Below, piece after piece: positions 25,515 through 30,114 of a stretch of 30,114 bases of DNA. Position numbers and translations under genes: made by a program. Location of the stretch: NCBI GenBank assembly GCA_003009755.1, contig PXUB01000014.1, positions 1 to 30,114 on the forward strand. The letters run 5' to 3'. Under the pieces are notes generated by a model. That model was not told the origin of the DNA and did not search any database. It saw nothing but the letters and a program-made list of their open reading frames with translations. Numbering within the stretch: the stretch's first letter is position 1; every line of letters starts with the position of its first letter. Source of the stretch: Thermoplasmatales archaeon SW_10_69_26 (GTDB lineage Archaea > Thermoplasmatota > SW-10-69-26).

Positions 25515-26162
25515 TCAGCTCGACGGGCCCGCCCGCTGGGCCTCGCCGGTGTCGGCGTCGACCTTCATCTGGACGTTCTCGTCGCTCGTCTTCGCGTTCA
25601 GCAGCCACGACTTGTCGCCACCGCCCTGCGCGAGCAGGTAGCCGACCTTGACGTCCTCGCTCTCCAGGGCGGAGGCGAACTCGTCGTCGGCGTCGACGGC
25701 CGCCTGCACGGCGTCGGCGCTCGACACCGACCAGTCCTCGACGGGCGCGTCCATGAAGAACGTGTCCTGCTGGCGCTCTTCGAGGTGGGTCTCCCCGTCC
25801 ACGTTCATGTAGACTGTGGCCAGGTTGCCCTCGCCGTCCTCGAACGTGTACGTCCACTGGGGCGACAGGCCGTCGCCGACGTTGTCATCAGCCTGGAAGT
25901 CGAAAGCCTCGCTGGACCACTCCTCGGCGCTGCCCTCGGTGGTCTCCGTGATCGAGGTTCCGATGAACTCGGCGTCGCTGGACCACTCGGCGGCCCTCGA
26001 TTCGGCGTTCGAGAGACGATCCTGAGCCGTCATCGCGTCACCGTCGACCCCCCCGCCTCCTCCTCCGCCCCCGGCGCAGCCCGCCAGCGGGGCGGCCAGC
26101 AGGAGGACGGTGGCCAACAGATGCACGTTGCCGTTCGCCGACCCGCCCTCGGAGCCGATCAT
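25515..26162 (-). CDS. PepSY-like exported lipoprotein
   Basis: A 215-residue lipoprotein. The N-terminus after the ATG at 26160-26162 leads to LLATVLLLAAPLAGC (lipobox) and an eight-Gly linker. A GTG twelve codons in (before HLLATV) is an alternative start. The mature part repeats the pattern of the lipoprotein at 1470-2528: W-x-Y strand (QWTYTFED), DGE turn, DWSVSSADAVQAAV helix, then a SWLLNAKT strand and VDADTGEAQ end, typical of PepSY-like domains. The function is unknown, perhaps ligand binding or inhibition of an exported enzyme. A palindrome identical to that in front of the winged-helix/FHA gene lies 153-170 nt upstream of the start. Confidence 0.78.
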   Translation of the reverse strand: MIGSEGGSANGNVHLLATVLLLAAPLAGCAGGGGGGGGVDGDAMTAQDRLSNAESRAAEWSSDAEFIGTSITETTEGSAEEWSSEAFDFQADDNVGDGLSPQWTYTFEDGEGNLATVYMNVDGETHLEERQQDTFFMDAPVEDWSVSSADAVQAAVDADDEFASALESEDVKVGYLLAQGGGDKSWLLNAKTSDENVQMKVDADTGEAQRAGPSS

Positions 26163-26314: not shown

Positions 26315-26332
26315 TGCAGTCGGACGACTGCA
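26315..26332. promoter_or_regulatory. Palindrome TGCAGTCG-N2-CGACTGCA, copy 1
   Basis: A perfect 8+2+8 inverted repeat in the gap between the winged-helix/FHA gene and the lipoprotein gene, upstream of the latter. The same arms occur in the promoter of the winged-helix/FHA gene (27155-27176). Two identical long palindromes around one DNA-binding-protein gene are best explained as binding sites for that protein. The rest of 26163-26371 holds no gene. Confidence 0.6.
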
Positions 26333-26371: not shown

Positions 26372-27121
26372 TTACTCCGGCACGAACGTCAACAGCGAAC
26401 GCCCGACGCCGATCGCGTCGCCGGGTTGTAGGACCCGCTTCTCGTCCTCGGGGAGGCGCTGCCAGTTGATCCACGTCCCGTTCTTGCTCTGCGGGAGGTC
26501 GCGGATCGCGAATCCGTCCTCCCGCGGTTGGACGAAGCTGTTCTGCGTGCTCACGTAGGGATCGTAGTCCAGGCAGATCGGGGCGTCCTCGCTACGACCG
26601 ATCGCCCAGCCACCCTCCTGGCGACTGGCCTCGGTCAACGGGAAAGCCTTCCCTTCGTAGACGCCGTGCGTGAGCACCAGGCGGGGACCCTCGGCCTCGT
26701 CGGGCGAGGCCATCGGGTCCACCGTCCCCGTGGCCTCGGGATCGACGCCGTCCCCGGCGTACATCGTGGACAACTCGCGCAGGTCCTCGACCACCGCGTA
26801 CAGCTTGGAGGCGTTCACCTGGTAGCGGCGCGCCCCCGCGTCCTCCGGCTGCTCCTCACGGACGAAGCCGCAGGCGACGAGCTTGTCCACGTGCTGTTGG
26901 ATCGTCTGGCGGGCCAGGGGACGATCGGGGCTGCCCTCCCCCGTCTGCTTGTGCGGGGTGATCTCCAGCTCGCTGACCTCTTGTGGCATCCTCAGGTGGG
27001 TGAGAAGCTCGAGGCGGACCGGGTAGGCGAGCGCTTCGAGGAACTCCGCGAGAGCCACGTAGTTCACCGGCGGCTGGGAGGGGTCCGAGCGCACGTCTCC
27101 ACGATGCGTCCCCGCCCTCAT
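26372..27121 (-). CDS. Winged-helix/FHA-domain transcription regulator
   Basis: A 249-residue two-domain protein. Residues of about 22-115 form an ArsR-type winged helix (LAEFLEALAYPVRLELLTHL, a recognition region ARQTIQQHVDKLVACGFV, and a wing GARRYQVN). Residues of about 148-247 form a forkhead-associated domain: AIGRS (174-177), YVSTQNSF (S191; the usual His is Asn194), DLPQSKNGTWIN and LQPGDAIGVG. FHA domains bind phosphothreonine, and a membrane kinase is divergently encoded next door, so this is probably a phospho-dependent regulator. The ATG at 27119-27121 is chosen because the codons before it overlap the promoter palindrome. Asn for His in the FHA site may weaken binding, although the Ser and NGT contacts remain. 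Confidence 0.92.
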   Translation of the reverse strand: MRAGTHRGDVRSDPSQPPVNYVALAEFLEALAYPVRLELLTHLRMPQEVSELEITPHKQTGEGSPDRPLARQTIQQHVDKLVACGFVREEQPEDAGARRYQVNASKLYAVVEDLRELSTMYAGDGVDPEATGTVDPMASPDEAEGPRLVLTHGVYEGKAFPLTEASRQEGGWAIGRSEDAPICLDYDPYVSTQNSFVQPREDGFAIRDLPQSKNGTWINWQRLPEDEKRVLQPGDAIGVGRSLLTFVPE

Positions 27122-27154
27122 GAAACCCTGAACGGGACAGCGTCCGTTTGTGTC

Positions 27155-27176
27155 TCTGCAGTCGACCGACTGCAGA
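27155..27176. promoter_or_regulatory. Palindrome TCTGCAGTCG-N2-CGACTGCAGA, copy 2
   Basis: A perfect 10+2+10 inverted repeat 34-55 nt upstream of the winged-helix/FHA ATG, abutting the A/T-containing patch 27143-27151 (CGTTTGTG-like on the plus strand) where a TATA box would fall. Its inner 18 bp match the copy at 26315-26332 except for the 2-nt spacer. It probably autoregulates this gene and might also act on the divergent kinase. Confidence 0.62.
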
Positions 27177-27252
27177 CTCGCGGGACCCGCGCCAGCTCGA
27201 GAAACCCGCGCCATACAGCGAGCGGGCTCCCGATCGGCTCGAACGGGCGTGG

Positions 27253-27271
27253 GAGGGTTCAAGTAACCCTC
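27253..27271 (+). promoter_or_regulatory. Inverted repeat GAGGGTT-N5-AACCCTC in front of the kinase gene
   Basis: A 7+5+7 perfect inverted repeat 30-48 nt upstream of the kinase start, distinct in sequence from the palindrome at 27155-27176. It overlaps the A/T-rich part of the promoter region (TTCAAGTAA), so it could be an operator. Confidence 0.35.
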
Positions 27272-27287
27272 TCGATTGAAAATGTTC

Positions 27288-27293
27288 AGGAGG
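27288..27293 (+). promoter_or_regulatory. Shine-Dalgarno sequence deciding a TTG start
   Basis: AGGAGG lies 7 nt before the TTG at 27301. It is the clearest ribosome-binding site in a window where most first genes look leaderless, and it fixes the kinase start despite the TTG. The ATG at 27283 is in another frame. Confidence 0.55.
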
Positions 27294-27300
27294 AACGGGC

Positions 27301-29304
27301 TTGCTCTCGGCGCTCGGAGCTCAGCAGTGGCTCTCGTTGGGATCAGCCGCCTTCATCGCCTACACGGCTTGGTGGCTGTACCGTTCCCAGCCCGAGAACA
27401 CCCTCAAGCGCCTCATCGCCGTCTACCTCGTCGCCGTCGTCGCGCAAAGCCTCGGAGGGGTCGGAAGGCTCCTCGAGGGCGACGCCAACCCCACTCGCTG
27501 GAACAACGTCGGGCACGCCGTCTGGACCGGCAGCTTCTTCTGGATCGCGTTGGCCACGGTCGCGATCTTCTACGTGTACCCTCGACGGCCCGAGCGTGGC
27601 TCGCTGGACTTCTGGTTCTTCGCCGGTCTGGCGGGGATCCTCGTCGTCGCCACCGTCCTGTGGTTCCTCGCACCGGACGTCTACTACCTCGACCAGGGAT
27701 CCGGAACGAGCGTCCTCTGGTGGCTGTTCGTCCGTGTCCCCGGGCGGACGCTTCTCGTCCTCCTCGCTCTCACCGCAGCCGTCTGGCGAGCCCGTGAGAT
27801 GGATGAGGCCGACCGACGGGCCGCGCTCATCCTGCTGCCGTCGATCGTGCCGTGGCTGTTCGTTGTCGGCGGGATCCGGCTGAGCCAGGCCGCCTACCAG
27901 GTGGCCGGCGCTCGCGACGTCCTCCTCCAGGTCATCCAGTACTTCGACGCGAGGCCCGGGAACATCGGTCACCTGCTCCCATCGCTTTGGCTCACCCAGC
28001 ACGCGCTGGTCCTCGCGTTGACCGCCTACCTCGTCTGGCGACACCGTTCCTACATGGCCCTCGGCATGGTCGTCTCCGGGGTCCTGATCACCACGGTTCC
28101 CCCGCTCGCGTTCATCAGTCTCTACGCGTTCTTCTTCCTCTGGACGCCGATCGGCATCCTCTATGCGATCGGACGACACCGGGCTCTCGGTGGGGACGAT
28201 CGCGATCGAACCGCGTGGAACTGGACGGCGGGGACCGTGGCCGCGTTCGTGTTCGTGTTGATCTTCGCTGCCGGGTTGGCCCGCCGCCCTGAGCAGGCGA
28301 CGGTGCCGATCGCGCTCGTCGTCTCCGGCCTGTGCAGCCTCGCGGCCGGCGTTGGGGTCCACCCGAGCGGCTGGTCCCTCCACGAGTCCTCGGCCCCGGT
28401 CCAACAGGGCCCCTTCGAAGCCGGGGCCGCGAACAGCGAGAACGGCCGGATGGGCGATCGCTTCCGGGTGCTCGAGCACCTCGGTAGCGGCGGGTCGGGC
28501 AGCGTGCACGAGGTCCACGACACCGTGCTCGACCGACGGGTTGCCATCAAAGTGCTGGAGGACGCCTCCAGCGACGAGGCGTGGGAACGGTTGCAGACGG
28601 AAGCCCGGCGAGTGGCCGACGTTCGCCATCCCCGCCTGGTCGACGTCCTCGATCTGCTCCGGATCGACGGGGATCCCCACTTGGTCATGGAGTACGCGGC
28701 CGGCGGCTCCCTGGCGGATCGGATCAGCGATGGCTCGCTCGGGGACGACGACTTCCACCAGGTCGCCCGGCAGGCACTCGACGCTCTCGAAGTGATCCAC
28801 AGCGGGGACTTGCTTCACCGTGATCTGAAGCCCTCGAACGTTCTCCTGACGGGGAACGGGGACGCCAAGCTCGCCGACTTCGGGATCGCCCGGTGCAAGG
28901 GGGACCAGACGGCGCTCGAGTGGCACGGCCCCGGGTCGCCGAAGGGGACGGTCGCCTACATGAGTCCCGAGCAAGCCAAGGGCCAGCCCGTCGACGAGCG
29001 CAGCGACCTCTACAGCCTGGCCGCGACCCTCTACGAGGCCTACACGGGCGAGGCCTACGTGCAGGTCGACCCCGCCGAGTCGCTCGTCGAGGTCCAGATG
29101 CGCGTCGCCGGTCTGGTGCCCTTCGACGAGGAGATCGAGGCCTCCCAGAGCCTTCAGGAGTGGTTCGCCACGGCGCTGGCGCCGCGGCCCGAGGATCGGT
29201 TCTCCAGCGCCCGCGAGATGCGCCAGGCCCTCGACGAGATCCTCGAAGTGTCCGAGACGCCCCGCTCGCAAGCGGAGAGCGAGGACCCCCCAGGCGCGGG
29301 CTAG
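27301..29304 (+). CDS. Polytopic membrane Ser/Thr protein kinase (Hanks type)
   Basis: A 667-residue protein: about 8-10 membrane helices (residues of about 5-360, e.g. FIAYTAWWLY, WIALATVAIFYVY, FFAGLAGILVVATVLWFL, LVLALTAYLVW, TAGTVAAFVFVLIFAAGLA), a short linker, then a eukaryote-like kinase domain (about 384-650). Catalytic elements are all present: Gly-loop LGSGGSGSV, VAIK (Lys417), TEARR (helix C Glu), HRDLKPSN (506-513), DFG (526-528) and MSPEQ. It should thus be an active Ser/Thr kinase facing the cytoplasm with a membrane sensor. The N-terminal helical domain resembles histidine-kinase membrane sensors, but I cannot name its family. Divergent from the FHA regulator, its likely partner. 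Stop TAG. Confidence 0.93.
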   Translation: MLSALGAQQWLSLGSAAFIAYTAWWLYRSQPENTLKRLIAVYLVAVVAQSLGGVGRLLEGDANPTRWNNVGHAVWTGSFFWIALATVAIFYVYPRRPERGSLDFWFFAGLAGILVVATVLWFLAPDVYYLDQGSGTSVLWWLFVRVPGRTLLVLLALTAAVWRAREMDEADRRAALILLPSIVPWLFVVGGIRLSQAAYQVAGARDVLLQVIQYFDARPGNIGHLLPSLWLTQHALVLALTAYLVWRHRSYMALGMVVSGVLITTVPPLAFISLYAFFFLWTPIGILYAIGRHRALGGDDRDRTAWNWTAGTVAAFVFVLIFAAGLARRPEQATVPIALVVSGLCSLAAGVGVHPSGWSLHESSAPVQQGPFEAGAANSENGRMGDRFRVLEHLGSGGSGSVHEVHDTVLDRRVAIKVLEDASSDEAWERLQTEARRVADVRHPRLVDVLDLLRIDGDPHLVMEYAAGGSLADRISDGSLGDDDFHQVARQALDALEVIHSGDLLHRDLKPSNVLLTGNGDAKLADFGIARCKGDQTALEWHGPGSPKGTVAYMSPEQAKGQPVDERSDLYSLAATLYEAYTGEAYVQVDPAESLVEVQMRVAGLVPFDEEIEASQSLQEWFATALAPRPEDRFSSAREMRQALDEILEVSETPRSQAESEDPPGAG

Positions 29305-29441: not shown

Positions 29442-30114
29442 TCACGAGTCCGTGAAGGCGGCGTCGTCGCCAAACACCGTTCCGTCGACGACGACGCCCG
29501 GAACGATGGCACGGTCGTCGCCCTCGGAGATCGTGGTGCCCTCGCCGGACGCGATCTCGATAGCGTGGAGGGCTCCCCCTGCGGAAGCGTACACCTGGGC
29601 TTCCGTGACGATCGGGGCACCGTAGGCGGACGAGCCTACGTCGTAGCGCCACACCTCTTCGCCCGTCTCGCCGTCGAGCGCGTAGACGTGGGTGTCGTGG
29701 GGGCCCTCGTAGTCGCTGGTGGGGCCGCCGGCCTTCTCGACCACCCCGGAGCCGACGTAAACGTGGTCCTCGTCCACCGCCGGCGTGTGGACGTCGTCCT
29801 CGGCCTCGAAGGTCCAAGACTCCTCCCCGGACTCGAGGTCGAAGGCGTAGAGGCCATCGTCCCCGAGGGTGACGTAGACGTGACCGTGGGCGACGACGGG
29901 CCGACTGGGGCTCTCGTCCATGCCGTAGGGGAACTCGTGCGTCCAGGACTCCTCGCCGGACTCGAGGTCCACGGCGGAGATCGCGTAGTCGGGGCTCTTG
30001 CGAACGGCGGCGACCACGGTCCCGTCCGCGGCGGCGACGGAGACGCGATCCTCCGTCGTGTAGTTCCAGGACACCTCGCCGGTCCCGGCGTCGCGCGCGA
30101 CCACGGTCGAGTCC
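29442..30114 (-). CDS. PQQ-type beta-propeller protein (partial at right edge)
   Basis: The C-terminal part, about 224 codons, of a repeat protein; the frame is open to the end of the window, so the start is missing. It contains propeller blades with the PQQ-repeat signature: YAISAVDLESGEESWTHEF, GLYAFDLESGEESWTFEAE, HVYALDGETGEEVWRYD and ALHAIEIASGEGT. Relatives are PQQ-binding dehydrogenases, BamB-like assembly factors and archaeal exported propellers. Without the N-terminus and cofactor residues, no enzyme activity can be claimed. The high acidity and secretion trend of the region suggest an extracellular location. The stop is TGA. Confidence 0.85.
   Translation of the reverse strand, partial: DSTVVARDAGTGEVSWNYTTEDRVSVAAADGTVVAAVRKSPDYAISAVDLESGEESWTHEFPYGMDESPSRPVVAHGHVYVTLGDDGLYAFDLESGEESWTFEAEDDVHTPAVDEDHVYVGSGVVEKAGGPTSDYEGPHDTHVYALDGETGEEVWRYDVGSSAYGAPIVTEAQVYASAGGALHAIEIASGEGTTISEGDDRAIVPGVVVDGTVFGDDAAFTDS

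Follow-up and report, generated by a model that had tools for sequence, protein, structure and literature searches.

The kinase gene and the regulator gene

The stretch of DNA analyzed here, referred to as the window, comprises the 30,114 nucleotides of contig PXUB01000014.1 of Thermoplasmatales archaeon SW_10_69_26. Toward its right end lie two divergent genes, one for a membrane-bound Hanks-type Ser/Thr kinase and one for a regulator in which an ArsR-type winged helix-turn-helix (wHTH) is joined through a linker to an FHA domain. This report concerns the pair, its recurrence in related genomes and the phosphothreonine switch that it may form. The features of the two genes are as follows.

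27301 to 29304, + strand: membrane Hanks-type Ser/Thr kinase, 667 residues (open reading frame, Pfam Pkinase, hydrophobic segments)
27301 to 28365, + strand: polytopic membrane sensor region of the kinase, without a known domain (hydropathy, no Pfam match)
28465 to 29214, + strand: kinase catalytic domain with Lys417, HRDLKP, DFG and the activation-loop Thr (CKGDQTALEWHG) (motifs, Pfam)
26372 to 27121, - strand: ArsR-type winged-helix and FHA regulator, 249 residues from the ATG at 27121 (open reading frame, Pfam, family profile)
26762 to 27064, - strand: winged helix-turn-helix and the next helix, residues 20 to 120 (fold model, ArsR/SmtB and HTH_20 matches of the family, profile search of the PDB)
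26381 to 26683, - strand: FHA domain, residues 147 to 247 (Pfam FHA, fold model, Foldseek)

The kinase gene starts with TTG and is preceded by a Shine-Dalgarno sequence (AGGAGGA, 27288 to 27294). The Pfam Pkinase model matched residues 389 to 637 of the product at 150.5 bits (cut-off, 31.7), and the catalytic motifs were found to be complete, with the VAIK lysine (Lys417), HRDLKP, DFG and an APE-like MSPE. By all of these motifs, the predicted product is a Hanks-type Ser/Thr kinase. About eight hydrophobic segments were detected N-terminal to the kinase domain by hydropathy, and a Pfam search of this sensor region gave no match.

The regulator gene has alternative starts at GTG 27094 and GTG 27067. 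When the window regulator was searched alone, its winged helix remained below threshold in Pfam and NCBIfam. Among 32 family members, however, 26 matched HTH_20 and 30 matched the ArsR/SmtB model NF033788 (the window protein falling below the cut-off), and a profile search of PDB sequences returned ArsR/SmtB chains for the wHTH part and GarA and OdhI for the FHA part. The family profile, the HTH_20 and ArsR/SmtB matches and the fold model all support the assignment of the N-terminal domain as an ArsR-type wHTH. None of the metal-site cysteines of the ArsR/SmtB metalloregulators was found in the window regulator, the sole cysteine of its wHTH lying in LVACGFV, and its N terminus carries no four-cysteine zinc ribbon. 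No BTA domain was found in the 249 residues by Pfam or in the fold model, the architecture being wHTH-linker-FHA only.

The Pfam FHA model matched the window regulator at 41.9 bits (cut-off, 20.7), and the binding pocket is kept (Gly175-Arg176, Ser191 and Asn214-Gly215). AlphaFold models of nine sequences gave a confident wHTH, an FHA domain with a predicted local distance difference test score (pLDDT) of >90 and a linker, residues 121 to 141, with a pLDDT of <50, as for disordered regions. In Foldseek, the window FHA domain was structurally most similar to the FHA domain of DgcB with its phosphorylated tail, GarA, OdhI and EmbR. The OdhI model was matched by 22 of the 32 family members, with the window regulator far below its cut-off, and a search of plasmids with the regulator gave no match. 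A first-pass annotation of the locus had described a polytopic membrane protein with a complete Hanks kinase domain beside an ArsR winged helix joined to an FHA domain, and both descriptions hold.

Recurrence of the pair

The window genome (2.82 Mb, 95% complete) encodes five full Hanks kinases and the same number of FHA proteins at the Pfam level; every kinase adjoins a wHTH-FHA gene. These five pairs lie on contigs C12 (the window), C13, C19, C43 and C1. A search with the 32-member alignment added two wHTH-FHA copies, on C8 and C25, in which the FHA pocket is degenerate. Among 389 genomes sampled from the phylum, the family is present in all seven sampled genomes of the window's class and in two others. 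Two further genomes, G236 and G201, each carry a divergent FHA gene adjoining the genome's only full Hanks kinase.

Pairing was counted over 46 family members across nine genomes, with G236 left aside. A Hanks kinase domain lies within 5 kb of 34 of these genes, mostly at 150 bp or less, compared with about 1.1 expected by chance. One unpaired member (L072), located on a 3.8-kb contig, is probably paired too, because the next open reading frame encodes a PQQ domain resembling the one in the kinase of its orthologue. Absence of the two genes together in relatives had been named in the first-pass annotation as grounds against its reading. This check came out in favor of the reading: besides the 34 close pairs, the presence of FHA and of a full-length Hanks kinase coincided in all 45 genomes checked. 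The 11 FHA-bearing genomes all encode such a kinase, and none was found in the 34 phylum relatives lacking an FHA match. The kinase matches in these relatives all scored below 61 bits and came from open reading frames of about 210 to 240 residues, the size of Bud32/RIO-type kinases, which they presumably are.

With G236 included, the orientation of 35 pairs was compared: 19 are convergent, 15 tandem and only one, the window pair, divergent. The association of kinase and regulator is thus kept although the gene arrangement changes. The divergent arrangement described earlier is real at the window locus and does not extend to the other pairs, and a divergent operon as the general rule was rejected, since 19 of the 35 pairs are convergent.

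The partners also co-vary. In a mirror-tree comparison, regulator and kinase distances correlated with an r of 0.558, against 0.429 ± 0.046 for shuffles of partners within genomes, and 8 of 5,000 shuffles reached the observed value. The window regulator groups with members of G005, G213 and G076 (clade support, 98/91), and the closest relatives of its kinase are the kinases of that clade. These results bear on a hierarchical arrangement in which a regulator is phosphorylated by several kinases and the neighborhood reflects birth by tandem duplication, not strict one-to-one signaling. Kinases outnumber wHTH-FHA genes in several genomes (G002, G006) and some regulators have no neighboring kinase, which fits such a mix, but the partner trees match better than the within-genome shuffles and the pairs remain adjacent despite their differing orientation. 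We regard this explanation as very unlikely.

A conserved threonine in the linker

The best clue to the mechanism is a threonine in the linker that the first-pass annotation did not mention.

26729 to 26731, - strand: codon of Thr131, the conserved Thr of the disordered linker and predicted phospho-acceptor (alignment, fold model, shuffle control)

The linkers of 46 regulators were aligned, including G236 and leaving out one member cut by a contig end. A single column is conserved, with Thr in 41 of the 46, and the remaining linker positions are variable. When the linkers were shuffled and realigned 120 times, no Thr column ever exceeded 13. The threonine lies 14 to 17 residues ahead of the first FHA strand in 36 of the 41 regulators, a hydrophobic residue occupies position +3 in 19 of the 41 (background, 16%), and Asp or Glu occupies position -2 in 18 of the 41. 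These surroundings are similar to those in the phospho-tails of GarA and DgcB, which are bound by the proteins' own FHA domains.

All five regulators that lack the threonine have also lost Ser and Asn of the FHA pocket, and none of the five has an adjoining Hanks kinase. By Fisher's test, the linker Thr is associated with an intact pocket (1.5e-5) and with kinase adjacency (5.8e-4). Degenerate FHA pockets are confined to members without an adjacent Hanks kinase, except for the very distant G236 member. This distribution, together with pairing far above chance and the lack of metal-site cysteines in the window regulator, argues against the view that the regulator is simply a one-component protein of the ArsR type whose FHA domain is decorative and whose kinase neighbor is unrelated. 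Membership of the wHTH in the ArsR/SmtB superfamily speaks for that explanation, which we nevertheless hold to be extremely improbable.

Somewhat better placed, although still unlikely, is the alternative that the main role of the FHA domain is to dock the regulator onto the phosphorylated kinase, at the activation loop or juxtamembrane region, which would keep the regulator at the membrane and away from DNA, with the linker Thr incidental or serving another role. A threonine is present in the activation loop of 27 of 28 parsed paired kinases, and in Mycobacterium tuberculosis the FHA domain of EmbR is required for its phosphorylation by PknH (PMC4601284). Docking of this kind leaves unexplained why one Thr is kept in 41 of 46 regulators within an otherwise unconserved disordered linker and is lost together with the pocket.

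As a separate observation, three wHTH-FHA genes occur within 5 kb on contig C52 of G001 (L076 3223-7760), two of which lack both the pocket and the linker Thr; this 9-kb contig was found to contain no kinase. A juxtamembrane motif, YRAALE...LRxxLxxSxxEH, is conserved ahead of most paired kinase domains (e.g., L084, L085 and L086) and is missing from the window kinase.

Sensor variety and links to His-Asp signaling

At least one hydrophobic segment precedes the kinase domain in all full-length paired kinases; in the kinase with a receiver domain, this segment may be a buried part of that domain. The named sensors are a PQQ propeller with PKD (C1 of the window genome), PQQ (G005 C196), Kelch (G002 C21), a NosD beta-helix (G236) and a receiver domain (G004 C36), the rest being polytopic regions without Pfam names. 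By analogy, the logic would be that of two-component systems, with a variable sensor, a constant transmitter and a DNA-binding partner, while the chemistry differs. In the window, a gene for a PQQ-type beta-propeller (29442 to 30114) is convergent with the kinase gene and is cut by the contig end; the PQQ propellers of C1 and G005 C196 are fused to their paired kinases.

The window genome also contains 17 receiver-domain matches, so the kinase/FHA pairs are an addition to two-component systems and not a replacement. No HisKA, HATPase_c or Response_reg match was obtained with Pfam in either gene of the window pair. The two kinds of signaling appear to meet in some relatives. On G004 C36 (L082 6030-10134), a histidine kinase gene lies upstream of a receiver-Hanks fusion, which is convergent with a wHTH-FHA gene. 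In G003 (L095 3142-6436 and L079 3818-6820), the sole full-length Hanks kinase is a receiver fusion behind a histidine kinase, and the sole wHTH-FHA gene lies elsewhere, convergent with another histidine kinase. A receiver-Hanks fusion behind a histidine kinase, combined with an orthologous wHTH-FHA partner, is likely to constitute a His-Asp-Thr relay.

Regulators with degenerate pockets adjoin signaling genes of other kinds. The copy on C8 of the window genome (G000; L179 6853-9786) is directly followed by a PAS/GAF histidine kinase, and the degenerate-pocket genes at this locus and on G001 C91 (L073 2824-7229) adjoin histidine kinase-like and CheB-CheR fusion genes. Their position beside non-Hanks signaling genes suggests a change of partner.

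A palindrome at the window locus

The region around the pair contains the following additional features.

27157 to 27174, no strand: palindrome TGCAGTCGACCGACTGCA, predicted operator for the regulator and kinase genes (divergent intergenic region)
26315 to 26332, no strand: second exact copy TGCAGTCGGACGACTGCA, predicted operator upstream of the lipoprotein gene (exact repeat)
25515 to 26162, - strand: small secreted lipoprotein with lipobox LAGC and a weak PepSY match, predicted target (translation, start)

The 18-bp palindrome, TGCAGTCG-NN-CGACTGCA, had been described in the first-pass annotation as shared by the adjacent lipoprotein gene, and its two exact copies were found to be the only ones in the 2.82-Mb genome. 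The first is 36 bp upstream of the regulator ATG and 127 bp from the kinase start, and the second is 153 bp upstream of the lipoprotein start. Three sites with two mismatches occur in the genome, which is not above a reversed-pattern control. The palindrome is the predicted operator of the window regulator. A search for repeated palindromes near other pairs, and for the window palindrome near relatives, revealed no common operator.

The PepSY match of the lipoprotein scored 17 bits, below the cut-off of 24. Its family has six paralogues in the window genome, of which five are additional to the window copy and two lie on C13, about 6 to 7 kb from another kinase/FHA pair. As the paralogues are otherwise not near other pairs, the lipoprotein was rejected as a fixed third component.

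Comparison with known systems

A close precedent is PknH-EmbR of M. tuberculosis. PknH, a membrane Ser/Thr kinase, phosphorylates EmbR, a transcription factor that combines a winged helix with an FHA domain at the C terminus. Interaction with the kinase requires this FHA domain, and phosphorylation raises promoter binding (PMC4601284). EmbR has an OmpR-type wHTH and a BTA domain (SARP family), whereas the window regulator has an ArsR-type wHTH without BTA. EmbR is also phosphorylated by several kinases and does not belong to a multi-copy family of neighboring cognate pairs, as the archaeal proteins do, and the conserved linker Thr ahead of the FHA domain sets the archaeal family apart from it.

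GarA, OdhI and DgcB share with the archaeal family a disordered region with a conserved Thr, acidic residues before it and a hydrophobic residue at +3; in GarA, OdhI and DgcB, this region is bound by the protein's own FHA domain upon phosphorylation (PMC6733907). In the DgcB tail, LEK-pT-SIV, the Val at +3 sits in a pocket of the FHA domain, and this tail has been aligned with those of GarA and OdhI (PMC6733907). Their output, however, is enzyme inhibition or a GGDEF domain instead of DNA binding, and their Thr is N-terminal and not between two domains.

According to PMC10470591, conservation of FHA proteins among archaea is limited to Crenarchaeota. In Sulfolobales, ArnA and ArnB act with the kinases ArnC and ArnD, the archaeal FHA protein repressing genes under eukaryote-like kinases; ArnA differs in joining a zinc ribbon to FHA, in binding phosphorylated ArnB (vWA) and in not binding promoters on its own (PMC6509490, PMC10470591). 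With two-component systems, the family shares variable membrane sensors on one transmitter, an adjacent DNA-binding partner and many paralogous pairs per genome, but the window pair uses a Hanks kinase and FHA in place of HisKA/HATPase and a receiver.

The one-step route from kinase to promoter through threonine phosphorylation that had been put forward for this locus is supported by the pairing, with phosphorylation and DNA binding as presumed steps, but is not new in principle. PknH-EmbR already provides a kinase that acts on a transcription factor with an FHA domain, and ArnA/ArnB an archaeal case of repression involving FHA. New here are the joining of ArsR and FHA domains in an archaeal protein and the array of many pairs with swapped sensors. 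A literature search, from which most subscription papers were missing, turned up no archaeal ArsR-FHA family that forms dozens of cognate kinase pairs and carries a conserved candidate phosphosite in the linker, an absence that is weak evidence.

Proposed mechanism and meaning

We think it probable that the two genes form a cognate signaling pair in which the kinase phosphorylates Thr131, the FHA domain binds phospho-Thr131 and DNA binding changes. A signal at the membrane sensor region would activate the cytoplasmic Ser/Thr kinase domain, which would phosphorylate the partner regulator at Thr131 of its flexible linker. As a first step, the FHA domain may bind to the activation loop of the kinase once this loop is autophosphorylated, a possibility raised by the threonine found in nearly all of the parsed loops. 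It would then capture phospho-Thr131, in the same chain or the opposite chain of the dimer, in the manner of the GarA, OdhI and DgcB tails. Capture would alter the geometry of the dimer and its binding to the 18-bp palindrome ahead of the pair and the lipoprotein gene and, with it, the expression of all three genes. The regulator is assumed to be a repressor, as for most ArsR-type proteins. Phosphorylation could either release or strengthen DNA binding, and PknH-EmbR, where it raises promoter binding (PMC4601284), illustrates that either is possible.

Several points weigh against this mechanism. The membrane part of the kinase is poorly modeled, with an AlphaFold pLDDT mostly <50. Twelve of the 46 members lack a Hanks kinase within 5 kb; some of these are on short contigs and two are beside histidine kinases. 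Most pairs are convergent, so that co-regulation at the level of transcription does not hold for the family in general. The palindrome belongs to the window locus and is absent from the other pairs searched. The joint loss of Thr, pocket and kinase amounts to just two or three independent events, counted on a tree built without the Thr and pocket columns, which is too few for a sign test. Phosphorylation, phosphothreonine binding by the FHA domain, DNA binding and the direction of regulation are steps that we infer, not biochemical observations. Finally, the usual FHA His after the pocket Ser is Asn194 in the window regulator, a change that the first-pass annotation had singled out as potentially fatal to phosphothreonine binding. 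As a pocket-breaking change, it was rejected: the kinase-paired members have 17 Asn, 15 His and 2 Gln at this position and keep Arg, Ser and Asn of the pocket. Because Asn is this common alongside an intact pocket, its presence is a family variant and no sign of FHA loss.

For the family as a whole, we lean slightly toward a threonine-based counterpart of two-component signaling in this uncultivated archaeal lineage. It would consist of cognate kinase/ArsR-FHA pairs, dozens in number, whose sensors are interchangeable (polytopic membrane regions, PKD, PQQ and Kelch propellers, and a NosD beta-helix) and would include, in some members, a receiver-kinase behind a histidine kinase, forming a His-Asp-Thr relay that ends in an FHA switch.

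The substrates of archaeal Hanks kinases are largely unknown outside Sulfolobales. Here, a kinase, its partner, a predicted phosphosite and a predicted operator are all named, and the family to which they belong comprises dozens of paralogous pairs. If the proposal is correct, the pair specificity of Hanks kinases would become testable, and threonine phosphorylation would serve as a modular, repeatedly duplicated wiring from sensor to promoter, parallel to the histidine kinases of the same cell.

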